A program made the position numbers and the translations under genes. A stretch of DNA of 64,000 nt, from positions 2,294,001 through 2,358,000 of the forward strand of contig CP084608.1 of NCBI GenBank assembly GCA_025917655.1, given 5' to 3'. Shown here one piece after another: positions 2,505 through 56,112 of the stretch. The stretch's first letter is position 1. Each line of letters opens with the position of its first letter. This DNA comes from Chlorella sorokiniana (lineage: Eukaryota; Chlorophyta; Trebouxiophyceae; Chlorellales; Chlorellaceae). The notes below the pieces were generated by a model that was not told the DNA's origin, made no database searches, and saw only the letters and a program-made list of their open reading frames with translations.

Positions 2505-3455
2505 GGTGGCGGTGCCCTCGTGCACCTCGCCGATCTTGTACGACTTGCCTGGGATAGACAATAAGGGGGTGGAAGGGGGCGGAGAGCGGAGTGAGCAGGC
2601 TTGTGGGGAAGGAAGACATGCAGCTTGAGGAGAGCAAAGGACCCGGCGCAGAGGCAGCGCTGGGGATAGCTGCCCCCGGTGCAGGGGCGTGGGGCTGGCT
2701 GCCTGGCTGGCCTGGCAGCGGCCATTTGGCGTTCGCAGCCTGCTGTAGTGCGCTGGCGCCGACCAGCAGCACGGACCCCAAGCGCAGCACAAAAGGAGAG
2801 GAGCGGAGCGGCAGGGAGGGCGCTCACCGGTGTAGAACAGGATGCGCTCCGTGGTGGTGGTCTTGCCGGCGTCGATGTGGGCCATGATACCGATGTTGCG
2901 GTATTTCTCGAGAGGCACCTCGCGCTTGCCTGCAGGGGAGGGCAGCAGCACAAACACAGGTGGGGGTGGGCGCGCCGCGGCGAGAGGTGGGCGCAGGCGG
3001 CGCTGGCGGCAGCGGCCGCGCCAGGGAGCCACAGCGCCACCACAATGGCGCCTTGGGGGTGGCTGGCTTGGTAGAAAGACGTTTTCGGGCGTTTGTGAGG
3101 CGGGTGTGACCAGCCAGCGGGCCCAGGGCGCGCTCACCAGCCATGGCCACCACCAGAGACTGCCCGCGGCGACCAGCGGTGCTTGCGGCGGCGGAGCGCA
3201 GCAGTGCATGAGCCTGTACAAGCACAGGGGGCGATGGGTGCGCGCATTCCGTCAGTGGTGACCGCAAACACCCAGCTCGCTGGCCATGCCACCACAGGCT
3301 GATATGCAAACACGTGCCTGAGGCTGTGCATTGGCCGGGCGGAAGCCACTGAAGCCGTTCAGCCGCTTGGCAGCCGGGCGCACGGCAGCCTGGCGGCTGG
3401 TGCTGCGGCTAGCGGCCACAGCGCTGCACTGAGCAGCAGCAGCCTGAGTAGCCAT
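1..3455 (-). CDS. Chloroplast translation elongation factor G (5' part of gene; C terminus lies outside the window)
   Basis: This is a translational GTPase that moves tRNA and mRNA through the plastid ribosome. It starts at the ATG at 3455. Nine exons are visible: 3318-3455, 3138-3213, 2828-2929, 2379-2548, 1918-2094, 1478-1594, 1126-1254, 453-767 and 1-198. They give about 474 residues of the usual ~780. Residues 1 to ~75 are rich in Ala, Ser and Arg, as in a transit peptide. Then come the P-loop [12 protein letters not shown] (exon 3), the switch region [11 protein letters not shown] and DTPGHVDF (exon 4), and [10 protein letters not shown] (exon 5). Domain II begins in exon 8. The exons read through without any frame problem. 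Intron 1 appears to use a GC donor (CAG/GCACGT), because only that choice keeps the frame. Mitochondrial EF-G is the alternative; the transit-like start and the plastid-type G domain favour plastid. Divergent to the next gene with 190 bp between the starts. Confidence 0.93.
991..1108. repeat. 38-bp tandem repeat, three copies, in an EF-G intron
   Basis: The motif GGGAGCAGCAGCCCCC recurs at 1000, 1038 and 1076, a strict 38-base period with almost no divergence. It lies inside the intron between exons 7 and 8 (768-1125). The unit is rich in CAG and CCC. The near identity suggests recent expansion. No coding role is seen. Confidence 0.85.
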
Positions 3456-3645
3456 GGTTGCAAGTTGAAGTTAGAGGTCTGGCGGAGGCTGAATTGAGAC
3501 TCTTCACGGGCTGCCATCCTGCTCACAGCACGCAGCAGGGCTGGCGGAGGGACAGCCAGGGCTTTCGTGGAGATCCGGCGCATTGAGCACGCAACATTTC
3601 TCTGTCATCGACAAACTAACCCGCCGGTTGTCGGCACCGGCCCCT

Positions 3646-5650
3646 ATGCGGCCACAGCTGGCCCCAACCACAGCAAGCCCCACGGCGCTCTGCAGTTCCA
3701 TCCAGTCCCAACATCAGTACCAGCCCACTGTCTCCGCCGCTTGCGCGATCTCGAGACCCCTATCGCGGCAGCAGCGGCCCTGTCGCGGGCAGGCGGCAGC
3801 GGCGGCGCAGCAGAGACTCAACCCAGCTGCTGCCTGCTTGAACTCTGGCCCGTCCCGGTTGCAGCACAAGCTCGGGCATTGCCAGCGACGGGCAGCAGGG
3901 CTGCCAACCTGCGCTGCAGCTGCCCCAGAGGCTGCGGAGGGCGGCTACCAAACAGACAACGATGGGCAGACGGTGGAGCAGCGGCTGGCCCTGGTGCAGA
4001 ACATGGTTGCCACCGCAGAGCTGCTGATCCCTTATGACGCCAGTGCTGTCAACATGGCCCTGATTCTGTGGTGCGCCTTTGCGTGCATCTTTGTGTTTCT
4101 GTTTGAGTTTTGTGCGGGCACACTGGGGACTTCGACGGTGGAGAGCCGCCGTTCAGGCCGCCGTCCTTGTGCTTGGCCCGCTGGCGGCAGCGAGCATTCG
4201 CTGCGTCAGCCCAGCCAGGCCTTGCCCCTGCTGCCCGCAGGGGCGCCATCCGCAACATCCCTGCCAAGGACCGCGTGCAGTTGGTGTCTCGACTCAGCTC
4301 GGGGTGCGCTGCTTGCCTCTGCTGCGCCCGGCCTGCCTGCCCTCCCCACTGCCTCCGTCTCTTGCTGTGCTGCGGCTCGTTGGAGCCCCACTACGCGGGT
4401 GCTGCATTGGTTTCCTCACGCCTTGGGAGCCCTGTTGGCCTGGCGCCCATCGCCCTCCCTCCTGCTGCGGCCTTGCAGCGACATCAAGCGGCTGTGGCAG
4501 GTGGCGGGCCAGCGGTACAGGGCCCCGAAGCAGCAGGTGGCGGCCGCCATCGGCCCGGAGTACTCGCTGTGGAAGGTGGGCAGAGGTTTGGAAAGAAATG
4601 GGGTCCGTTGTTCGACGGGTTTGGAGAGGCTCGGCACAACTCGTCCCCACAAAGATTGCAAATCCTACACCCACCCCCCATCCCCTGTTCCCACGCACAC
4701 ACAGAAGAAGTGCATCAACCACACACCTGCCCAAGCGCGCATGCACCCTCATCCCCCTCCCGCACCCCCACCCCCGCAGGACCTGCCCGCCTCGCCGGCG
4801 CAGCTGTCCCACTTCCGCGGCAAAGCTGCGCTGCCCACGCACGTGCTGGGCGTGTCGCGCTTCTCCAAGGCTTTCTTCCTGCAGCCGGGCAGCGAGGTGC
4901 TGTACGGGCGGGTGCTGCTGGGCAAGGGGCCCCTGGGCGACCTACTGTACCCTCTGTACTTCCAGGCGTCCGTGGGAACCGCGGTAGTGCCCAGTGAGCT
5001 TCTGGGGCTGGGAGCGCGCTCCTGCACCCGCTCCTGCGCCTGCTCCCGCTTGCAAAGGCTGTGCTGCGTGCTTGCTGGAGAGTAGAGGGGCAGGGTCACG
5101 CACCACCCGCTCCTCCGCCCCGCAAACCCCGCTCCTGCCACTCGTCGCTTCCCCCGGCTGCTCCCAGGCGCTGGCGTGCTGACACTCATTCTTGTCCTTA
5201 CCGTTCCTCCCTTGCTTTCCAGCCACCCAAGAGCTCTGCGACCTGACACTGAAGTACCTGCCGCCGCAGCAGCTGGGCCTGGAGCGGGACGATGTACCGC
5301 GGTCCCGCTGGCCGCCCCCGCGCCGCCAGCTGCCCCCTTCCACGACGGCTTCACAGACTACCTGCGGGCTGTGGCGCCTGGGGTGTACGTCGGGTGTGAT
5401 GCGGGGGCCTGCCTCTCACACTCACGCCTCTCGACTGTCCAAGCGGGCGAAAGCATGTCGCTGTCCGCCTGCACGCACGGCAGCCGCGGTGCATTGCATC
5501 TGCAGGGCCTGCCCCTCGCTGAAACCACTGCCCCAAGCCCCCTGCTGCTGCCGCCGCTGCTGCAGGCTGGGCTACCGTACCGCCTCCACCGAGCCCAATG
5601 ACCCGCTGTACTTCGTGATGGTGCACACTCACACCGAGTCACTGCTGTGA
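3646..5650 (+). CDS. Plastid-targeted protein of unknown function
   Basis: I do not recognise the family. The first in-frame ATG is at 3646. About 70 residues rich in Ser, Ala, Arg and Gln follow, ending near LPTCAAAAPEA, which looks like a chloroplast transit peptide. Exons I support are 3646-4070, 4241-4303, 4479-4575, 4780-4993, 5223-5393 and 5566-5650. The mature part has conserved-looking stretches: VQNMVATAELLIPYDASAV, IRNIPAKDRVQLVSRLSS, DIKRLWQVAGQRYRAPKQQ, SRFSKAFFLQPGSEVLYGR, TQELCDLTLKYLPPQQLGLE, DGFTDYLRAVAPGVYVG and NDPLYFVMVHTHTESLL. No clear membrane segment is needed once introns are removed. Exon 5 needs a one-base shift between LGLERDD and FHDGFTDY to stay in frame, as in many genes here. 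It is likely a soluble stromal protein, but the function is open. Confidence 0.72.
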
Positions 5651-6700
5651 TGTGTTTTTCGCCTGCTGATCGTGCAGCTCACACGGTGGCGGCAGGCACG
5701 CAGCCAGCTACGTGCACATCACGCTTCCCACGCCAGGCTGTGCGGCGCCTGCTCCCAAGCTGTGCTTACATGGTGCGCCTCCGGCTGCATCCGCAGCAGG
5801 CCGGTTTCGTGCAAGACGGATCGCGTGCTGCCTGCCCCCATCTGCCCATCCCCTTTCTTTTCTTTGATTGACACTGAACAATGCCGCTGCCCTTGCTCAC
5901 CCCAAGCACTGATGTGCCGCTGCTACTTCACACAAGCCTGCACTCCTCATTCTTTCCTGGTTGATGCATGGTGCCACCCAAAGCTGTGGTGCGGAGTCCT
6001 TGCTGCTCCAGTGCAATGTTGTTTTCTAAGGTGCCACCTGAAGTACAGGCAGTTACTGGAAGTCCGGACAGGAATGTGGCGCTGAGGGGCAGGCCTGGTG
6101 CATTCTGGCAAGCGCCGTCAGCCAACCTGCGTGAGCAATGCATCACGCTGCCTCCAGGCCAGGCTGGCAGCACGCTGCTGCAGATCCTGTCCCTTGTGTG
6201 CGCCACGGTAGATGCCTGTGGATTCAACAGTCTTTTGCCGCTGTGAAGTGATGGCCCTTTGCATGGAGACGACTTCCATCTAGTAAGTTGAACTGGAGTG
6301 CAAAGCAGAGCCTTAGCAACAAAATGCAACGTTCTACAGGGCTCTGCAAGCAGGAGCGTTCTGCAGGCCAGGCCTGATTGACAGCAGGCAGATGTTGGCA
6401 GGCGCCAGAAAGCAGCACAGCTGGGACAAGGGGCAAAGCTTTTCGTCAATGGGCAGAGCGCAAGCAGGAGTCAAACCCTGCGGCAGCAGCAAACGAGCAG
6501 CCGGGGGCTGCAGCTCATTGCACGGCTCAAGCCGGGGGCGGCGCCAACCCGACGCTGCTTGGCCCCACAAAGCCGTCATGTGTGCAACGTGCTGCACCCG
6601 CCGGCTGCTGCCAGAGTTGTCAGGTGATCAAAACTGGTGGCCGAGCACAGCGGCAAACAAAGCTTTATGCGGAAGGGTCGTTGCGCGAACAACGCCGCGG
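5651..6700. other. Convergent intergenic region and 3' UTRs
   Basis: This kilobase lies between two gene ends that face each other (the plastid unknown and the glutathione peroxidase). Short ORFs here have poor codon bias and no recognisable domain. The only structured signal I see is a possible hairpin at 6518-6587, listed separately. Confidence 0.5.
6518..6587 (-). promoter_or_regulatory. Possible SECIS-like hairpin in the GPx 3' UTR
   Basis: Read on the minus strand, TTGCAC (6587-6582) can pair with GTGCAA further on (6523-6518). Inside this stem are ATGA on the 5' side (6579-6576) and TTGA on the 3' side. A GGGGC/GCCCC stem follows, then an AA before the loop. This is the order of parts in a SECIS element (helix, ATGA/GA quartet, helix, apical AA). 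However, ATGA and AA are about 15 bases apart, where 11-13 is usual, and the helix next to the quartet pairs poorly. It sits about 110 bases past the stop codon I favour, where an algal SECIS should be. Weak candidate only. Confidence 0.28.
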
Positions 6701-8242
6701 CTAGCAGCTGCTGGCGTTGGTGAAGGGCTCCCCCGCCACCTTGGCCATCACCGGCAGCTGCGCGCTCCTGCGGGTCCGCTGGGGGCGGCGCCGGCGCTGC
6801 CAGCGGTACGGAGGGCGGGACGGCCTCGGGATGCTTGCGCCGCGCCTGCTCGGGCCACTGGGAGGGCAGCAGGCTGTCCTCTGGCCTGGGGTGCAGGTTG
6901 TGCAGGTGCTGCAGGGTGCCGTCCACCATGGCACCCAGCCGGCCCCGCCGCTCTGAAGGCAGCACGCCGGCGGCGGCAGCTGCTGCTCGGCCGTCAGCCT
7001 GGCCGCCAGCGCCCGCTGCCCCCGCAGGCTGCTGCTCCTGCAGCTCCCCCGCCGCCAGCAGCTTCACAATCGACGCCTCCAGCAGCGCGGGGCGGGTGCG
7101 GGGCAGGTACCGCCCGTACACGCGGCCGTCCCGCCCCACCAGGAACTTGGTGTACCTGCGCGGCGCGGCGGGGCCAAGTGCAGCGTGCACAGCGTGGGTG
7201 GGCTGCCTGGTGAGCTTGCCGACCGCCGGTCGGCTGTCCGGTGAGCATCTCTGGCCCCCCACGCCAAACACAGAGCAGAAGGTTGTTTTGGGCCTGGACT
7301 GGCTACGGCGGCGGCCCTCTTCATGTGCATGCGCGGCGCCAGCTGGCGACTCACGGCCAGGGGATGGGGCGGCGTCGCCGCTGGCCACCTTGAGGAAGTC
7401 GACCACCGGGAGGCGCTCCGCCCGTTGACCAACACTTTGTCCATGACCACGCCCCTGGGAGGGGAAAACGTCGGTCGCGGGCGGCGGTCAGCTGGAGTGA
7501 CGGGGGCGTTGGAGACGCAGAGCGGCAGGCGAGAGCTGAAACCTTTTTATTTTCGCTTTGGACGGCCACCGCGGGCTGGCCCCCAAGCAGTCAGGGGCTC
7601 CCTTTGCCGCAGTCAGGGATGGCTTCTGGGTGCTTCTCAGGAGCGGCGCACACGCCTGAAACACCAGAGGGCACATCGAAAAAGGATCAAAGTCAGCTAG
7701 CGGGCGGCAACGCACTGGAAGCTCCTCGAGCGTAGGAACGCCTTGACCGCCTCGTTTGGGCCCGGCTCCAGGTTGAGGATTTGGTTGGTGGGGATGGCCA
7801 GCACAGTGAGGCCCCGCGATGAGTACTCTTGCATAAGGAGGTTGAAGTCCTGGGCAGGGAGCAAGATACAAGCGCGCAAAAGCAGCGCTCAGCGCTGTCA
7901 AACAAGCGCCGGATGCATCATGTGAGCGGCGCTGAGAGCGGCTGCCGCAGTTGGCGGATTGCACGGGGGCAGGGGTGCCAATGCACCTTGAGATGCCCAT
8001 CGCGGTAGGAGCCTCATTTGGAGGAGGTGATGGAGACCAAGACCACCTGCAGGGGGAAAGAGCGGCAGCCAGCCTCGAGCAGCCGCCCCACCAGTACCGC
8101 CGCCAGTGCCCCCCAAGTTGCGCAGCACCTGGCCGTCGAAGCGCTTGAAGTCTAGGTCGTTCTTGTCTATGTCCAGCGCCTTGAGGTCGTGAAAGTTGCT
8201 GGCATTGCTGGTGGGCGCCGGGGAGCTGCAACCCTGCCCCAT
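6701..8242 (-). CDS. Glutathione peroxidase, selenoprotein form (Sec encoded by TGA)
   Basis: This enzyme reduces hydrogen peroxide or lipid hydroperoxides using thiols. Exons: 8129-8242, 7987-8046, 7849-7716, 7454-7355 and 7155-6701. The family core is clear: FHDLKALDIDKNDLDF, VVLVSITSSK-U-GSYRDG, LTVLAIPTNQ (the GPx FPCNQF box), EPGPNEAVKAFL, VVMDKVLVNG, PVVDFLKV and YTKFLVGRDG. The redox-active residue is an in-frame TGA (8014-8016) exactly where Sec or Cys sits in GPx. The only ATG in frame (8242) gives MGQGCS, a myristoylation/palmitoylation-type start. Exon 4 needs two one-base additions to keep VNG, PVVDFLKV and IPWPYTKFLV together. After the domain there is a long Pro/Ala-rich tail. 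I favour the stop at 6701, but the end is uncertain because it also needs a frame shift; another frame stays open to 6576. Confidence 0.88.
8014..8016 (-). other. Selenocysteine codon (TGA) at the GPx active site
   Basis: The minus strand reads TCC AAA TGA GGC TCC inside a 60-base exon whose both edges are clean phase-0 splice sites (CAG/GTGCTG before it, AAG/GTGCAT after it). Coding homology continues on both sides: VVLVSITSSK before, GSYRDGHLK then DFNLLMQEY after. In GPx proteins this is the Sec/Cys of the V-A-S-U/C-G motif. A chance nonsense change landing exactly on this codon is unlikely. Confidence 0.88.
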
Positions 8243-46700: not shown

Positions 46701-48237
46701 TGTTCTGCTGCCCAAGTGCAGACTGCGAGCGTACAGCGACGCCCACCTGAGCTGCGTGGAGAAGAACTGCACCAGCAGGCGCACCAGCGCCGGCAGCAGC
46801 GGGTCGTCAGCCGGGCTGCGGCCGCCGCCGCCCTGCGCCTCCGCAGCCCAGCGCTGCAGCACGAGCTCGCAGGCAGCCTGCGGGCCGGAGGGGCGTGCCG
46901 TAGGTTTCACTGATCAGATTGCCCAGCAGCCAAAGGACACGAGCAGCCCTTCTCCCTTGCGCCACCCTGAGCTCTTCTGCTTTTCCCCGCTGCCTCCCAC
47001 CCCCATGCAATCCCACCCACCCACCCACCCAATCAACCAGATCACACCACACACACATATAAATCAGGTTTTCTTCTCTGCACCTGGGCCCTCCCACACC
47101 CATTCACGTACATGGACACGTTTTCCCCCTAACCCCCCCCGCGGCCCCCCTCCCCGCCCCCGAGCCCCCCAAGCCCCGGCGTGCCTGCAGCCGCGGCAGC
47201 AGCGCCTCCAGCATCTGCTGCGCCTGCTGTGCGCTGAAGTACTTGGCCTGCAGGTCGGTGGCGCAGTCCAGCGCCGCCGCCGCCACCTCCAGCGCCGCCT
47301 CCTCGCCGCCGCCGCCGCCGCCAGCAAGGCTGTTGGGTGCTGCCAGCGAAACAAAGTCGAAGAGCAGGGCCACTATTGCGCCGCTGCTGATGCCCTGGTC
47401 CTCGGGGAGCCGAGCGGCTTCGGCCAGGGCGGAGCGCAGCAGCGCGCAGCGCCCTGGCGGCGAGGCCCAGCGGCGGCGGGCCGCCGCGCCGCCGCCGCCG
47501 AGAGCACCGCGCACGCCCTGCAGCAGCTGGCACAGCATGGCGAGCGCGGCGGGCTGCAGGTCCCTGTAGCGCTCCTGGATGGAGGGTATGTCGGACGACA
47601 GCACCTGCACGGGTCGAAACCGATCGCCAGGCAATCAGGCTGGCAGGCCGGTCCAGAGCACATCCCCCTCCGGGCAGCGGCGACGTGGGCAGCCGCAGGC
47701 AGCCGCAGCCCAGCGCATGCCCAGGGATCATGCCTTGCGCCTGCACCCCACCTTGCCCTTCACGCCGTAGCTGGTGTTCTGTGCCAGGGAGCGAAAGTGG
47801 TCCAGCGTGGCCGACAGTAGGCCCACCCCCGCCTCGGCTCGGGCGGGGTCGGCGACGCACGCGTGCAGCTCGGGCCAGCCAGACGGCCACTCCAGGCACA
47901 GCACGTGCGCCAGGCTCTGCGCCAGCTTGGCACGCACAAAATGGGGTCGGGCCGGGTCCGTGGCGCAGCGCCAGAGGCATTCGCGCAGCGCAGCCTGCCG
48001 GGCGGGTTCCAGGCGCGTCCAGCGATAGGCGACAGCCTCGTCGACAGCGGTGGCGGCGAAGAACAAGGCCTGCAGATCGGCCGAGGCGGGCTGGCGCAGC
48101 GCATGCAAGGCCCAGTCCAGAGCGGGCTCCGTGCGGCTCAGCGCCCGGAGCTCCGCCTCCGCGGAACGCTTCACATGGTGATCAGCTGACGGGTCGTAGA
48201 CCAACCGTAAGAGCCCTTCGAGTCTTCCAAGATCCAT
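42201..48237 (-). CDS. Exportin-6-like karyopherin (importin-beta superfamily)
   Basis: In animals exportin-6 carries profilin-actin out of the nucleus with Ran-GTP. The ATG at 48237 starts MDLGRLEGLLRLVYDPSADH. N-terminal HEAT region: ALDWALHALRQPASADLQAL, FFAATAVDEAVAYRWTRL, HFVRAKLAQSLAHVLCLEWP and SGWPELHA, which parallels the XPO6 line YFIRNKLCKVIVDIGRQDWP. Many Ala/Leu helices follow over about 15 exons (for example LLVQFFSTQL, HVDLLLMLEV, FVRHAESFLGRTVTTF, GTEAVEQLLGALVQAF). The C terminus EALGDTLFCLAAANWTDFHA, GVLP, ERALLAFLNDVAYWER fits the XPO6 end IYNMASVDFDGFFAAFLP then SFTQNVHRLVNDLRYYRL. A poly-Gly run (~43700-43744) expands one loop. Another exportin such as XPO4/7 is the alternative; the C-terminal match favours XPO6. 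Cargo in algae is unknown. Confidence 0.83.
43704..43744 (-). repeat. GGC-repeat coding for poly-Gly in the exportin gene
   Basis: The plus strand has a run of CCG triplets, read on the minus strand as ten or more Gly codons followed by Ser, Ser, Gly. It lies in an open exon of the exportin-6-like gene and encodes a flexible loop between HEAT repeats. Length may vary between strains. Confidence 0.75.
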
Positions 48238-48440
48238 ACGAATTGATGCACATCGCGACGATTAGCCCACGCAGTGGCTTCCATCTGTTGGCGGCTGCTG
48301 CGCACGACGTGGCGGCGCCGACAGGCAAGCTCGAGCTTGGCGTTTCACAATGTATGGAGGCGTGCAAGTGGACGACCAAGCCAAGAGAGGCACTCAACTG
48401 CTGCTGGGAACCACTGCGTTCTTTGCGGTGTGAGCGCCCC

Positions 48441-51400
48441 TCAGCTGCCTGCCGGCAAGGCGCCCGCCAGCACCCGCACCACCTCTGCCGCGGTCGGGCG
48501 GCGCCCGGGTCGGCCTGCAGGCAGCCCTGGATCAGCGCAGCCACCTCTTGGGGGCAGTCTTCAGGAGACCTGCAGTAGTCCAGAAAGTTCTATGTCAATT
48601 AATCATTCATTCACTCGCTCGATGACTCGTTCTCATGTGCACACGCGCCGTGCCGGCTGCAATTTCAGCCTCCACACTCGCCTTGCATCAGCCCGAAAGC
48701 AAGCCCCCCGCGCCGCCCGGCCTCACCGCAGCCGCCGCCCCTCGCCGCGCCGTGCCAGCCGCTGGCCCGTTGCGATTCCGTGCAGCACCCAGCCCAGGCT
48801 GAAAATGTCGGCTTCCAGGCCGCACGCGCCGTTGACCAGCTGCTCGGGGCGGCGTACAACGGCGTACCGCACCCTGGCCGCAGGCTCACGCTGCGGTCGC
48901 CCAGCATGCGAGCCAGGCCAACATCCGCCAGCTTGGCAAGCACGCCGCCGTCGCCGCCGCCGCCCCCTCGCTGTCTCCGTTGCTGTTGCTGCCGCTGCGG
49001 TCGTCGCCACCGCCCCGAACGCTGCTGCCGCCGCTGTTCGGGTCTGCTGCCCGGGTCAGCAGCACGTTCTGCACAGGAAACGCAGGCCAGCACACAGAAG
49101 AGGCACTCACCTGAGCAGGCGAGGCAGCAGCCGACTTGCCTGACTGCTTGCCATTTGTAAACACGGGCTGAAGCCTGTGCTGCCTTCCACAACACCGCGC
49201 AAACAAGCCGGCCCACCGCAGGCTTGATGTCCAAGTGGGCCACGGACAGCTGGTGCAGGAAGGCGACGGCGCGCGCCACGTCCAGCGCCACCCTGGCGCC
49301 CCGCTGGCGCCAGCGCAGCCATGGGGCGCCCAGCCGCTCCTGCAGGGTGCCCCCTTCCAGCAGCTCCGTCACCAGCATCAGGCTGGGGGCGGCAGCGCGA
49401 AGGTGGCCTGACGCGCCCGCCTGCGCCTCGTGCAGCCGCCCCGCGCCGCCCCCTGTCCGCCGCCGCTGGAATAGACGCCCAGCAGCTGCACGATGCAGGG
49501 GTGGGAGCAGCGGCGCAGAACCTCCGCCTCCCACCACAGCCGCTGCTGCTGCGGGCGCTGCCGCTCGAAGCCAGCGCCGGGCGGGTGCGGTGCGGCGGGG
49601 TCGGCAGGCTGGTGGAGCACCTTGACGGCCACGGGCCACTGCTCAAACAGGCGGCCGCGGTACACCTGCGAGTACAAGCGGAGCGGTAGACAAGCGGCTG
49701 GCAAAGCTTAGAGAATCCCTCGCCCGCAACCAGCTTCAATCAAGTGGGATGTAGCCAGAGGAACGGCACGCTGCCTCACTGCCCCTTCACCCTCACCCAG
49801 CCTCGCTCCCTCTCGACGTCACGCCCACAGACGCGCCGCGCCCCCGCCCCCCCCCCTCCCCACCCACCCACCCAGCCACTGCCCAAGTGCTCACCCTGCT
49901 GAATGCGCCGCTGCCCAGCAGCTGCGGCTGGCCATCGTCGCCCACTGAGATCGTAAAGTCCTGGGGCCGCAGGCGCAGGCTGGAGCTCTGCAGCCGCCAG
50001 GAAGCTAAGTCGGACGACCAGGCGGCGGCGGCGGCGGCGCCGGAACCGGGCTGGGAGGGGCCGCCGCCAGTTGCGCTGCCGCCGCCGGAGGGCCGGCTGT
50101 CCAGCAGCGGAAACAGGTCTGCCTCCCAGCTGCTGTCGTGCACGTGGAGAGCTTGGGGGGGGCAGCCGTCGCGACATGGCACGCCCTGCGCGCCTGCAGG
50201 GCTGCCGAGCGACGGCGCCGCCGCTGCACCGCCAGGCTGGCCACCAAGGCCGCCGCCGCCGCTGTTGCCGCTGCAATCGCAGTGGCTGCTTCGCCGCTGA
50301 GCCCGAGGGGTCCGCCAGGAGCGCAGAGGGGGAGGTCCAGCCTGACTGGCCCGCACCCTTCGCCTGCAGGGCTGCCCTCATCCGCCGCCGCTGCGCCGCC
50401 ACCCTCCTGCATGCGCTGGCGCCTGCTGCCGCCCTCTCGTGGCACCCCGGGCGCCGCCCGCGCATCGCCGGGGGCTGTGGCTGGGGCAGCACCCGCCTCA
50501 CGTCTCCCAAAAGCCACAACTTTGCGGCTGCCACCGCAGGTGCCGTGCCAGCGCGCGTAGCTGTAGCCGCCGTGGCCGGCCTGCAGGATAGCGGGGGCGC
50601 TTCGGGGCCAGCACAGCCCACGGTTGCCTGGGCTAACCAGCAGCATGCCCTGCAGGCAAGAAGGGCACGAGAGAGCAGCTGGAGGGGAATTTGCCAGGCT
50701 GAAACTGCAGTCATAAGGCCAAAGCAGGGGCTGGCAGGGGGCGCGCCCCATGGCAGCACAGCACGCATGCTGCCCTTGCAAGCCCGCAGCAGCGACAAGA
50801 CAAGAGCGTAGAGTGCCGAGCAGCGGTCAAGCACGGGTGCGCGGCGCGGCGGCAGGCCTGCCTGTGGGTGGATGGGTGCGGGCCCCGAGAGGCTGTTCCC
50901 CACCAAATCCACCACCAACGTGGCGGGCCACGCGTTTTGCTGCGGGTCCCCAGAGCCCCACTCCTCAGGAATGCGGCCGGTCAGGTTGTTGCTGCGCGCA
51001 GATGCATGCGGAGGGAAGAGTGAGCAACAGGACAGGCACGGCGCACGCAACAAGGAGGAAGCAACAACCAGCGCAGACAGTTCTTCACCCTGCGTAATGC
51101 CACAGCGAGGCTGCAACCTCCCGCCTCCACTGCTCCCCTGCAGGCGCCGGCCCACCCCACCCCCTGCTCATGCGAGGCCGCCCACCAGCCGCACACGGCA
51201 CGATCTACCACCCCGCCCGGCTCACTTCTCCAGGCCCAGCATCTCCAGCAGTGGCAGCGCCGCCGGCCAACCCGCGGGCAGCGTGCCCGACAGGCCGCAG
51301 CCGGCCAGGCGTAGCCGCAGCAGCTCGCGTAGAGGCCCCCCGTTGCTGCCAGGGACGACATGGGCGGCAGGGGGCAGCGTGCCGTGCAGCGGGTTGTCTG

Positions 51401-53364
51401 CGGCGTCGAGGGTTGACAGCCTGCAGGGCCCGCCCAAGGGCAAGGAGTCGTGGCCATACTGTTGCAGCACAAACAACCGGTTGCGTGCATCGTTGCAGAG
51501 GCGTCGCAACAAGGGGTGAAGCGAGGCAAGGCGCCCAGCCACACAGCCGTGCGACCAGCCGCTCAACCAAAGCGCAGCACGCCGCGACCACATCCCAGCT
51601 GTCCCTCAGGCCCCTGCAGCATGCGGGGCTGTAGAAGCCAGGGCAGCGGCGGCCGCACCGGTGCCAGGCCTCCTCCGGCGGCGCCAGCCACTCCACGGGC
51701 ACAGGGCCGCGGAGCTGGTTGCCGCTGAGGGACAGCGTCTGGTGCAGGGGGCAGGGCGCAGGCGGGCGCGGGCGGTCACGCCGCAACCGCACCACTTTCA
51801 GGGCCACACCCTTGACTATGCCATCTAATTGCCACACACACTCCCTTGCTGCAACAAGTCACGCAAAAAATCGAAGAAGAAGAAGAAGTATGACACGCAG
51901 GGGTGGCCTGAATACGCCCTTCTGTGGCTGACCCCCCAAACCCACCTCGAGCCCAGGGAAGGCGGCGGGCAGCCACGGCGGCAGCGTGCCCGTCAGCGCG
52001 TTGCTGGCGATGTGCAGCATCTGCAGCACACGCGCTTTCGTTGGCGATGGGACTGGCCAGCGAGGCGGGCGTCCAGCGGCGCCAGCGGCGCCCATGCGGC
52101 CGGGATGGGGCCGACCAGCCGGTTGTTGTCCAGCTCCAAGAACCGAAGGCGGCTGCAGGGGAGGGGGTGCGTCATGGTGCGCATGAGGGTGGCGGGGTGG
52201 GCGGAAGTCGGCGGGGCACAGTACGGCATGGCGTGCTTTGAGTTTGTGTGCGCATGTGAAGGCGGGAGTCAAGAGGCCTCCACATGTGTGCCAAGGAGAT
52301 GACAGGAAAAGAGCCCTCCGCAACCTCAAGGACGGAGCTGACGCGCGACCCTCACACGGCAGCAGGCTTTAACCCCCGCCCAGCCCCAGCCTCACGTCAG
52401 CAGGCCATCTGCCGCGCCCCACTCGAGCGGAAGGGAGCCAGTGAGGCCGAGGCCCACGAGCGACAGGTCCTGCAGCGCGGTCAGCCGGCTCAGCGGCGCG
52501 GCAAGCTCCTGCAGCGATGCCGACAAGCTGGGCAGGCAGGGTTCTGCCACAGCTGCCACAGCTGCGGCAAGGGGGAGGCAGGGAGGAGGGCGGTGGACTG
52601 AGAGGGTGTGAACATGGCTGGCTGCCTGCTTTAGAAGGTGCTGAACTGTCAGAGCGGGAGCAGGGCCGGTAGGGCTTGCCTTCGTCATAGCCCAGACCCC
52701 GCCGCTGGCATTCTGACAGCTTGAATACTTCGGGCATGCTGAGCGTGCTGCAGGGTGAAGTGCAAGGGGAAGAGGCGCTGGAGCGTTCGGTGGCGGGGTT
52801 GGTACCGCACGCTGAGCGCGCTGAAGCGACGTGGCCCCCGCCCAGCAGCCGCTGGCCAGCAACTGCGCCTTGTCAAGCGTGAGCCTGCACGGCCGTGCCC
52901 GCAGCAGCGCAGCAGCTCACAGCGTCGCCACGCGGCCGAGGGTGTCGCAGGAATACACAAAGCTCCAGCTGCAGGGGTGGGCCAGGGTGGCGTTCCTGCC
53001 GGGTGTGCCGCTTTGCCACCCTGAAACGTGGATGCCAAACGCTTCCATGTCCTCCCAGCCCTGGATGGCGCGTCTGATCTCGAGCAGAGCTTGAACTGCA
53101 CGAAAGACCGACAGTATGGTGTGGGCTGCACTGCAGCGCAGCTCTTGTGCCGGGCTGCCTCTGGCGGTCAGCCGGCTGGCCGGGCCGCCACCGGCGGGGC
53201 AGCCCCGTCTCGACACCCGCGACGCTGGGATGCGCAGGCTTGCCTTCAGCCTGAACGCTCCCTCTTGGGCTCGGGACTGTGTAGGCACGGAGGTTTGCCG
53301 CCAACAGGGCCACCTGCAGCAGGGCTCGCAGCCAGGCCCAACGCGTGCCTCTGCACGCCTTCAT
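48441..53364 (-). CDS. Leucine-rich-repeat receptor-like protein kinase
   Basis: A predicted single-pass membrane receptor kinase. The ATG at 53364 gives a hydrophobic signal peptide (WLRALLQVALLAANLRAY). Next is a plant-like LRR N-terminal cap: ALLEIRRAIQGWEDMEAF, HPCSWSFVYSCDTLGRVATL. LRRs follow: DLSLVGLGLTGSLPLEWG, RFLELDNNRLVGPIPAAW, MLHIASNALTGTLPPWLP, SLSGNQLRGPVPVEWL, LAGCGLSGTLPAGWPAAL, NNLTGRIPEEWGSG. A membrane helix of Ala/Ile/Val (AIAAATAAAAALVASLAV) precedes RRRRRS. Kinase: LLGSGAFSRVYRGRL, VAVKVL (catalytic Lys), LVTELLEGGTLQERL, HLDIKPA|NVLLT (HLD instead of HRD), KLADVGLARML (DVG for DFG), GTPLYAAP-EQL, and a last exon ending RVLAGALPAGS, stop 48441. HLD/DVG are common in algal TKL kinases. 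Several one-base slips are needed (for example at APEQL and before LADVGLAR). The ligand is unknown. Confidence 0.85.
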
Positions 53365-53695
53365 GGCGATTGCCGGACGGGCATCCCTACATACAAACGC
53401 CGCGCAGGTGACGGGCGCCGCGAGCGTCGCAGGTGCACGTGATTATGGGAGGGCCGCCGCCGCGGGCGTACAGCTCGGCGCTGGAGCCGCACAAGAAGCG
53501 CCGGCAGTAGCCGCATTGCAAGGGGGTCTTTTGATGCATGAAGTGGCCAACCACCCTGTGAAGCTGGCCAATGCCACGAAGGTTTAAAGCAACGCATGGA
53601 GAGGCCAGGTGGCGGACGCTTGCTGCAGGAAAGCGTCTTGAGGACCGCAGATGCCCAGGCAGTGTTCCGGGTGCTGTTCACACTAACATCCACTG
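53365..53695. other. Short spacer between tandem genes
   Basis: These 331 bases lie between the LRR-kinase start and the stop of the Spinster-like gene upstream on the same strand. They hold the kinase promoter and the transporter 3' UTR. No gene or clear core-promoter motif is visible. Confidence 0.5.
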
Positions 53696-56112
53696 TCAAA
53701 CCGGGTCGTGCGTCTGCTGCACCTCGCCTTCTTCATGGGGGACCCGCTCCGCTCCCAGAAGCAGCGGCTGATGCTCCCCCTCCTCCTCTACCAGCCCGCC
53801 GCCATCCACCTCCAACTCCGGCCCCCCGCCGGGCTGCCCCGCGCCCAGCACACCGCCAGCAGGAAGAGCGCCGCGGAAATCGCCAGCAGGCTGGTGCAGG
53901 CGCACATGCTGAGGCGCCAGTCGCCCAGGCGGCCCTGCGGGCGGCAACGCAAGAGGGTTGATGTATTTGCGGCCCGGCTTCAGGCCAGATAGCAACGCAG
54001 TGCCGGTTTCAAGACCCAGGCGTCTAGGGCTTTGGGCCCCACACAGCGCGGGCAGAGCACGGTGCCCGTTCGCTGTTCGACTCTGCAGCCGCGGAGCGGC
54101 GGCGGAGCCTACGGCAGGCCTGGGCCGCACCCCTGCCCCCGCCCCCCCACCCCCCACCTGCAACCAGCCGAGGGTGGGCGGCGCGGGGATGTCGCCCAGC
54201 AAGTGTTGCGCGGCTTCCGCGGCAGACAACGCGAAGGGGCGCAGCTCCTGGGGCACCGACCACATGATGGCGGCGTTGACGGGGGCAGCCATCAAGAACC
54301 TGCGGCCGGGCAAGGAGAACAACGTAGACGCTGAGCAAGCAAGGAAGCACAGGACAAATTCAGCTGCGAAACAGGATGAGGGCCTTGCCGCCGGAACATG
54401 ATCGGCATTCGTTGCAAAATTGTCCACACTAGAACCAGCGCAAAACACAGTTGGGGGCGGTGCCTTGCGGCAGCCCTCCGCTATGCCCGCCCCGCTCACA
54501 GGCCGAACTCGCCGCCCGCGAAGAGGGGCCCGAACTGCAGCATGTTCTTGGCGACAGCAAACCCCAGCATCACCAACACGCAGCCAGCTGCCACTCCGCC
54601 TGCAAGCAGGCGCGGGGTGAGTGTGTTGGGGGCCATCAGGGCAGCATGGACGCAGCAGCGCCGAGCAGCGAGCAGCGGCGCGCGGGCAAGGGGAAGCGCG
54701 GCAGCCTCCCCGCAGGCCACTTGAGAGCCCAACAACAAGCGGGGCAGCACAGGATGGATCTCACCCGTGCAGAGCATGAGCGCGTTGCGCACCGACGGCC
54801 CCAGAGCGTCCAGGGCCACCCCCCGCTCAGCGTGCCCGCCACGCCTGTGGCCACCGTGATTCCGCCAAACAGCAGGTCCGCAGTTTCGGGCGGCAGGCTG
54901 AAGATGTCGCGCGCCGCCTTGGGCCCGTAGAAGGCATAGCAGCCCAGCGCGCCATTGTACACGCTCAGCGCCAGGATGACCAGCAGGCACACCGGGCTGG
55001 CCAGCAGGCCGCGGCAGTCGGCCAGCAGCGCTGCCAGCGCGGCGCGGGCGCCGCCGCCGCCGCCCGCTGGCGGCGCGGCGCAGCTCCACGGGGAGGAAAG
55101 CAGGGTGGCGGCCGCCAGGGGCAGCATGGCACCCGCTTCGATCGCAAAGGTGGCCCTCCAGCCCAGCGCGGAGCCAACCTGCAAGCGGCGGGCCAGGCCA
55201 CGAGCTTGTAAGGTGCAAGCGCTTGACGGCGGCAGGAAGCCCAGCTTAAACTGCCTGCTGTTCTGGCTACTCCAGGGCAAGAAGCTCATGCAGCCCAGCG
55301 ATCTCCATCTAAGAGCCTGGCTTGAGTTTTGATACGTGTGGGTACGGCAGGAAGGGGCCCCACTCTGCAGCGCCTGCAACACTTGGCAGTGCGCCAGCGC
55401 CGCCGCCCCCCCCCACCCCCCACACACACCAGCTCACCAGGCCACCGTAGAGAAAGCCGAGCGCGAAGCCGGTGGGGATGCACACAAACAGCGCGGCCAG
55501 CCAGAGCGACTTCTTGGCCGGCGGCGCCAGGTCATCCACCAACGGCGCCGCCAGCGCGACGAACGGGCGCAGGCGCGCGCCGATGAGGAAGCGGCAGAGC
55601 AGGAGGGAGGGGAAGCCGGGGGACAGGGCGCAGCCTGCGGCGGCGACGACCCAGAGGCTGCAGACAGCGGCGAGGACCAAGCAGGCACGGGTCTTCGAGT
55701 TCGCACCGCAGTGGCAACACAGCTGAAGCAGGCCTCTTGCCGGGTCGTACCTGAGGCCAGACCCGATGAGCCGAAGCGCCGGCATGCGGTGGCTCAGCTG
55801 CGCGCAGGCCGGCGCCGAAAGCATCAGCCCCGCCATGAGCGCCGCCGCCAGCAGGCCATCAGCCGCCAGCGACAGGTCGAACTCGCCCTGAACGAGGCGA
55901 GCATAAGCACTGGTTATCAAGACACCTTGAAGCATGCAACCTGCTGCCAAAGGCGCATGCACATCTCAGCTGGGGGCCCACCTGGATACCATACCCGGGC
56001 GACCCCTCGCTGCCCTGCTTGCCGTTGACGCTGTTGCTGCCAATCACGCCCGGTCGGCGAACAGCAGCAGCGCCGAGCAGCAGAACAGGGCCAGCACCGT
56101 TCCGGGACGCAT
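53696..56112 (-). CDS. Spinster-like MFS transporter (probable sphingolipid transporter, plant type)
   Basis: A 12-helix major facilitator; animal and plant Spinster proteins export sphingosine-1-phosphate or related lipids, in plants at endomembranes. The ATG at 56112 gives TVLALFCCSALLLFADRA then, after one added base, VIGSNSVNGK, matching the plant motif NYVDRGAIASNGVNG. Then GEFDLSLAADGLLAAALMAG, LMLSAPACAQLSHR, LRLIGSGL, AAAGCALSPGFPSLLLCRFL, ALAAPLVDDLAPPAKKSLWL, FVCIPTGFALGFLYGGLV and LGWRATFAIEAGAMLPLAAA follow Arabidopsis Spinster closely. The second half has SVYNGALGCYAFYGPKAARD, ADLLFGGITVATGVAGTLSG, GCVLVMLGFAVAKN, MAAPVNAAIMWSVPQELRPF, HLLGDIPAPPTLGWLQ and LLAISAALFLLAVCWARG. The tail is acidic (VEEEGEHQPLLLGAERV), with an acidic-dileucine-like EHQPLLL that may sort it to vacuole/lysosome; stop 53696. 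Substrate inferred from family. Confidence 0.86.

Follow-up and report, generated by a model that had tools for sequence, protein, structure and literature searches.

A probable LRR receptor kinase gene

The 64,000 nucleotides of Chlorella sorokiniana DNA analysed here (the window; contig CP084608.1, hereafter C7, positions 2294001-2358000) carry a gene that probably encodes a single-pass leucine-rich repeat (LRR) receptor kinase of the algal LRR receptor kinase (LRR-RK) kind, its kinase belonging to a tyrosine kinase-like (TKL) clade apart from the land-plant receptor-like kinases (RLKs) tested. In the working model the gene runs from an ATG at 53364 to a stop codon at 48441, with about 2.2 kb of coding sequence, and all of its features lie on the minus strand. 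A start resembling a signal peptide comes first, then a motif like an LRR cap and eight LRRs of plant type; an alanine-rich membrane helix ending in a basic stop leads on to the kinase, which is of TKL type. An earlier inspection of the DNA alone (the sequence-only reading) had given the same order on one strand, and our analysis confirms it. The LRRs and the kinase are backed by Pfam, for which the queries were hand-made joins of exons with X at most frame breaks; the remaining elements were recognised by eye and from hydropathy.

The first exon (53306-53364), taken from translation, a gene model and inspection by eye and with an uncertain end, contains the ATG and the signal-peptide-like start MKACRGTRWAWLRALLQVAL... 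The N-terminal cap-like stretch (52921-53110) lies in an open frame and ends in HPCSWSFVYSCDTLGRV; LRRNT_2 is matched in paralogues. LRR 1 occupies an exon at 52396-52527, seen in both translation and gene-finder model. Translation, models and the LRR pattern together define the next three pieces: LRRs 2 and 3 (51946-52152), parted by either an intron of 95 bases or a frame break at about 52049, LRR 4 (51659-51738), and an exon with LRR 5, LRR 6 and the first part of LRR 7 (51226-51420). The remainder of LRR 7 and the beginning of LRR 8 follow at 50904-50991 (translation and model); LRR 8 extends beyond this modelled exon end, by eye to about 50865. Next comes a C-terminal cap-like exon (50535-50649; translation and models) with the sequence PGNRGLCW, for which paralogues have PGNERLCGPLP and similar. 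The eight units were counted by eye, where at least six had been proposed before, and Pfam scores for LRR_1 (66.5 bits), LRR_4 (50.8) and LRR_8 (36.5) are every one over the cut-off. The plant-type LRR pattern has five matches on the two strands of the window, all five of them within this gene.

The predicted transmembrane helix, TAIAAATAAAAALVASLAV followed by QRRRRR, lies at 50209-50283 and was found by a hydropathy scan with the whole window as control. Hydrophobic stretches followed by at least four arginine or lysine residues occur eight times in the 128 strand-kb of the window, and the helix at 50283 is the sole hydrophobic 19-mer there that is trailed by at least six basic residues. Beyond it are the juxtamembrane region and the glycine loop LGSGAFSRV (49895-50193; translation, model and Pfam) and one or more kinase exons (49217-49665; models, tblastn and Pfam) containing VAVKV, MLVTELLEGG and HLDIKP, with a break at about 49452 or a 62-base intron. 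A further kinase exon (48727-49068) contains NVLL, ADVG, PEQLVNG and ADIFSLG, with breaks at about 48966 and 48880-48850. The last (48441-48569), with a break at about 48496, contains SPEDCPQEVAALIQGCLQADPG ... TAAEVVRVL and the stop; both of these exons come from translation, model and a protein query. Pfam matches the kinase with Pkinase (E = 1.8e-34) and, slightly less well, PK_Tyr_Ser-Thr (E = 2.8e-32). The split kinase is not among the listed matches (best candidates) of our kinase-family searches of the genome; with a paralogue kinase as protein query it is recovered at E = 8.8e-10.

The neighbouring genes are also on the minus strand. Downstream, at 47104-48261, is an exportin-like start (Pfam Xpo1, E = 0.017), and upstream, at about 53900-55965, a transporter resembling the major facilitator superfamily (MFS_1, E = 2.2e-6, below its cut-off).

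A family of LRR-kinase loci

The window gene belongs to a family within the genome, of which our searches covered 38.8 Mb in 15 contigs. The LRRNT_2 domain (PF08263) gives 11 matches at E = 0.1, ten of which exceed the family cut-off; the window locus is not among the 11. Six of the 11 are followed on their own strand, 3.7-5.4 kb downstream, by a match to PF07714, where about 0.1 would be expected by our own arithmetic, with the 126 listed PF07714 matches placed randomly and a reach of 6 kb. By reading, eight of the 11 loci run on into a kinase (L031 to L036, L040 and L041), and three (L037, L038 and L039) are without one in the stretch read. LRRs followed by a kinase are also found at L042, L043, L048, L050 and in the window itself. 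The resulting total of 13 loci is a lower bound rather than a census, drawn from the window and 20 stretches of 6.5-10 kb (L031-L050) picked for LRR or kinase matches. At 11 of the 13 the hydropathy scan places a hydrophobic stretch and at least four basic residues between LRRs and kinase; at L040, where it found no clear helix, the gene model has one. Nine of the loci, including the window, have kinases of what we call type A (eight by tree, L042 by likeness to L043) and four have kinases of type B. An idea gained from reading, that type B ectodomains contain an F5/8 (discoidin) domain, was dropped when Pfam did not show it in L031.

Three of the loci (L036, L042 and L043) form a tandem LRR-kinase cluster at C7:23500-52000, recently duplicated, with copies 90.7% and 97.9% alike. 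By reading, a copy at C7:33.5-36k within this cluster is apparently without the LRR part.

Two of the LRRNT_2 loci without a kinase, L037 (C10:678500-688000) and L039 (C9:1822000-1831000), have LRRs and a membrane helix and resemble plant receptor-like proteins. The third, L038 (C13:6000-15500, minus strand, about 2541-7644), combines LRRs and a helix in a single model with a domain of the class III nucleotide cyclases (PF00211, E = 1.2e-5), and a stretch resembling fibronectin stays below cut-off (fn3, E = 8.7e-4); from these domains it is possibly an LRR receptor cyclase. At C3:545000-564700 (L044 and L045) there are four tandem TKL kinases with HGDLKPQN, in which no LRR was seen; three of the four models have a hydrophobic helix upstream.

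Motifs and placement of the kinase

By alignment, the window kinase keeps the VAVK lysine (VAVKV), the aspartate of the catalytic loop (HLDIK) and that of the DxG motif (ADVG). It thus has the residues of an active kinase, and activity may be predicted. The HLD of its catalytic loop lacks the arginine-aspartate pair (non-RD), as in its type A relatives: the loop is HLD, HFD or HSD in all ten type A loci (the window, L032, L035, L036, L041, L042, L043, L048, L049 and L050). In contrast, it is HRD in all four of type B (L031, L033, L034 and L040).

A profile made from six family kinases was used to rank solved kinases, the best 60 of 2643 being listed. Among these 60 the top places are taken by EGFR, JAK-type and TYK2 entries, with scores that are sums over more than one stretch, followed by a Src-Abl ancestor (162 bits), CTR1 (161), MLK4 (158), B-Raf (155 and less), MAP3K9/MLK1 (149) and BRI1 (149), so that CTR1, MLK4 and B-Raf all outrank BRI1. 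The nearest solved kinases and the trees alike assign the window kinase to the receptor kinase group (TK/TKL). For L031, the only type B member searched, the nearest solved kinase is CTR1 (179 bits), with an EGFR entry (143 over two stretches) and MLK4 (109) behind it.

Three kinase trees were computed, with few references overall and with BAK1, BRI1 and FERONIA standing for land-plant RLKs; the paralogue kinase sequences were partly joined by eye. The kinase of L045, which has no LRRs, is in the first tree and was omitted from the second and third for its long branch, and L042 is in none. The sole outgroup of the third is an MKK-like kinase of the same genome, on a very long branch. In all three the window kinase pairs with that of L035 (support 96/91, 96/91 and 90/92) within a nine-row set, type A, whose members all come from this genome (96/94, 98/95 and 79/79). 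The third tree has 84/74 on the branch separating type A and the outgroup from the rest. BAK1, BRI1 and FERONIA form a set of their own with 100/99 each time, and type B adjoins CTR1 (92/92, 80/81 and 82/83). Nesting of the window kinase inside streptophyte RLKs, as represented by these three references, was not found in any of the kinase-only trees, and a single clade of window kinase and the three RLKs is rejected by the approximately unbiased (AU) test (p = 0.014, 0.007 and 0.014). Type A and type B as a single clade are likewise rejected in the second and third trees (p = 0.005 and 0.008), with p values that lean low, this test having been chosen after the first tree was seen; the test of window kinase plus RLKs answers a question raised in the sequence-only reading. 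The results agree with that reading, which had likened HLD and DVG to algal TKL kinases more than to land-plant RLKs.

Integrity of the gene and alternative readings

Several observations count against a single, intact receptor kinase gene in a clade of its own, and they are brought together here. The signal peptide is a hydrophobic start judged by eye, with an uncertain start codon and no profile support. The plant-like LRR cap proposed earlier is visible as the motif HPCSWSFVYSCDTLGRV, but a Pfam search of the window gene at E = 0.1 gave no LRRNT_2 match. When run on 47000-54000, the gene-finder moves the start upstream to 53907 and fuses the window gene to its downstream neighbour, so that both ends of our model rest on reading. 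Since this self-trained program merges neighbours, its single models are not proof. Its models of the window also treat most or all of the helix stretch as intron. Elsewhere in the family, the scan found no clear helix in L033, and L049 (C8:810500-817000), one of the nine type A rows in the trees, has a type A kinase and no LRRs in the stretch read; its N-terminal region has no Pfam match at E = 0.05. As to the clade, a branch with 98/97 in the unrooted second tree has type A and the RLKs together on one side, and the third tree neither backs nor rejects the two as sisters (AU p = 0.22), so a sister relationship of type A to RLK/Pelle is possible.

The remaining points concern the reading frame. 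The assembly has no single open frame for the window gene, and the gene-finder calls between zero and seven breaks depending on its penalty. At the penalty used for the parts described above there are five, all deletion-like, at 52049, 49452, 48966, 48880 and 48496. The first two can be replaced by the 95-base and 62-base introns of alternative gene-finder models, while at 48966, 48880-48850 and 48496 an intron would, by reading, cost conserved kinase residues (ADVG, PEQ and the C-terminal RPT stretch). Retaining the helix in frame requires an extra shift close to 50160, where eight C stand in a row. Altogether about three to six apparent one-base breaks are left in roughly 2.2 kb of coding sequence, as might be seen if the window copy were a decaying pseudogene of the receptor family; indeed, Dievart et al. 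suspect two of their own sequences, one of them from Chlorella, of being misannotated or pseudogenes (PMC3268121). Against decay, the main catalytic motifs of the kinase are retained, and the program calls breaks all through the sequence read. For the window and the 20 stretches together, one penalty gives 62 of them (43 deletion-like) over 75 kb of coding sequence and a looser penalty 124 (93 deletion-like) over 74 kb, both counts including false calls. Furthermore, an HSP70 gene of the same assembly (L055, C3:1270700-1271100) breaks similarly, with two frame changes by runs of G about 110 bases apart (at 1270.9-1271.1k) across which the conserved protein continues. Assuming that this HSP70 copy is in use, the comparison makes error in assembly or sequencing likelier than decay as the source of most breaks in the window gene, and we regard a pseudogene as unlikely.

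The window gene is presumably transcribed as one unit; the alternative is a gene for an LRR receptor-like protein with a kinase gene of its own next to it. In favour of the alternative, LRR-membrane proteins that lack a kinase in the stretch read occur at L037 and L039, and the gene-finder divides L034, L048 and L050, modelling LRRs and kinase apart. Yet LRRs are followed by a kinase on one strand at all 13 loci, the scan placing a helix between the two at 11 of these and the model doing so at L040, and L041 reads through as one spliced model from start to stop. This has 897 codons including the stop, no frame break at the penalty used, and spans a signal-like start, LRRNT_2 (E = 6.5e-5), LRRs, helix and kinase. 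To be set against it, the model omits one kinase exon that tblastn shows, and the stretch has four breaks at a looser penalty.

A second line of evidence comes from L042 and L043 (C7:26k and C7:38k), duplicated copies that are 90.7% alike over 6.96 kb. The LRR exons of the two differ at 30 of 558 bases and the kinase exons at 22 of 609, with 17 of the 30 and 15 of the 22 changes at third positions; between exons the changes are denser (111/1483, 160/1299 and 88/770). Since the exons differ less than the sequence between them and third positions are favoured, the LRR and kinase halves of this pair are both under coding constraint, which does not in itself prove a shared transcript. We consider two separate genes in the window improbable.

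Finally, the plant type of the LRRs might bring to mind acquisition of a land-plant LRR-RLK by transfer, or contamination, a notion made scarcely credible by the exclusion of the kinase from the BAK1, BRI1 and FERONIA set, by the ranking of CTR1, MLK4 and B-Raf over BRI1, and by the presence of intron-bearing type A paralogues on contigs C1, C2, C4, C7 and C9.

Relation to known LRR receptor kinases

The single-pass LRR receptor kinase that we favour for the window is of a kind already known. The sequence-only reading had described the full layout as one long taken for a streptophyte trait; any claim to overturn such a view is forestalled by reports of Chlorella LRR receptor kinases from 2010-2011. 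Soanes and Talbot (2010) mention two LRR-receptor kinases for Chlorella NC64A (PMC2939053), and Dievart et al. (2011) find LRR-RKs, among six green algal genomes, only in Chlorella variabilis, as five genes in one lineage-specific clade (PMC3268121). The latter authors favour an independent association of LRR and kinase as most parsimonious, still allowing a common origin with many losses (PMC3268121). A review summarises how many RLKs have been counted in chlorophytes and, with reference to Gong and Han (2021), dates kinase-associated LRRs to early streptophytes (PMC10868138). Compared by published description, the Chlorella variabilis NC64A proteins resemble the window gene in joining LRRs, helix and kinase in a green alga, with a lineage-specific kinase outside land-plant RLKs; they differ in being five genes of one clade, whereas here there are 13 loci and two kinase lineages. 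The larger family and the second kinase lineage are what is new relative to the literature found, to which chlorophyte reports later than 2011 may have to be added. Oomycete, Ectocarpus and Monosiga LRR-RKs, likened here by description, are associations of the same sort beyond land plants in other lineages (PMC3268121).

With land-plant LRR-RLKs such as BAK1 and BRI1 the window family shares the order of domains and an LRR consensus of plant type, and the paralogues have the LRRNT_2 cap as well. In contrast, the window kinase lies outside the RLK set tested, with its HLD non-RD loop and ADVG, and has PEQ where BAK1, BRI1 and FERONIA have PEY. The CTR1/Raf-like kinases belong to the TKL group like the window kinase but are nearest to type B, whereas the window gene is of type A; to our knowledge CTR1 itself has no LRR ectodomain. 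Since the TKL kinase of the window gene does not group with the tested land-plant RLKs, an LRR-kinase association separate from theirs is the better reading. The independent fusion suggested earlier is to that extent upheld, and tempered by the sister relationship to RLK/Pelle that the third tree allows.

Possible function and implications

As a receptor of this kind, the window protein would be expected in the plasma membrane, where an external ligand would bind the extracellular LRR solenoid. The single helix would then transmit the signal through receptor pairing, bringing together the kinases, which would phosphorylate partners in the cytosol. The non-RD loop of type A would suit a kinase that is not switched by phosphorylation of its activation loop. 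Among the receptor kinases of land plants, those of non-RD type are linked to the sensing of microbes; by analogy one might guess at an immune-like role for the window gene, given its non-RD loop.

More generally, plant-type LRRs and a helix may have been joined to at least two separate TKL lineages, one algal and non-RD, the other CTR1/Raf-like and RD, and elsewhere to a class III nucleotide cyclase, a proposition that we see as evenly balanced. If true, the LRR-helix unit would act as a sensor that is shuffled freely, and through the CTR1-like members a receptor could feed straight into a mitogen-activated protein (MAP) kinase pathway. The family extends the little-noticed fact that LRR receptor kinases are not limited to streptophytes and, being built on other TKL kinases, could escape chlorophyte RLK counts. 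With 13 loci and tandem copies it offers material on the ligands that a unicellular alga senses through LRRs, and it bears on how many times LRR-kinase receptors arose.

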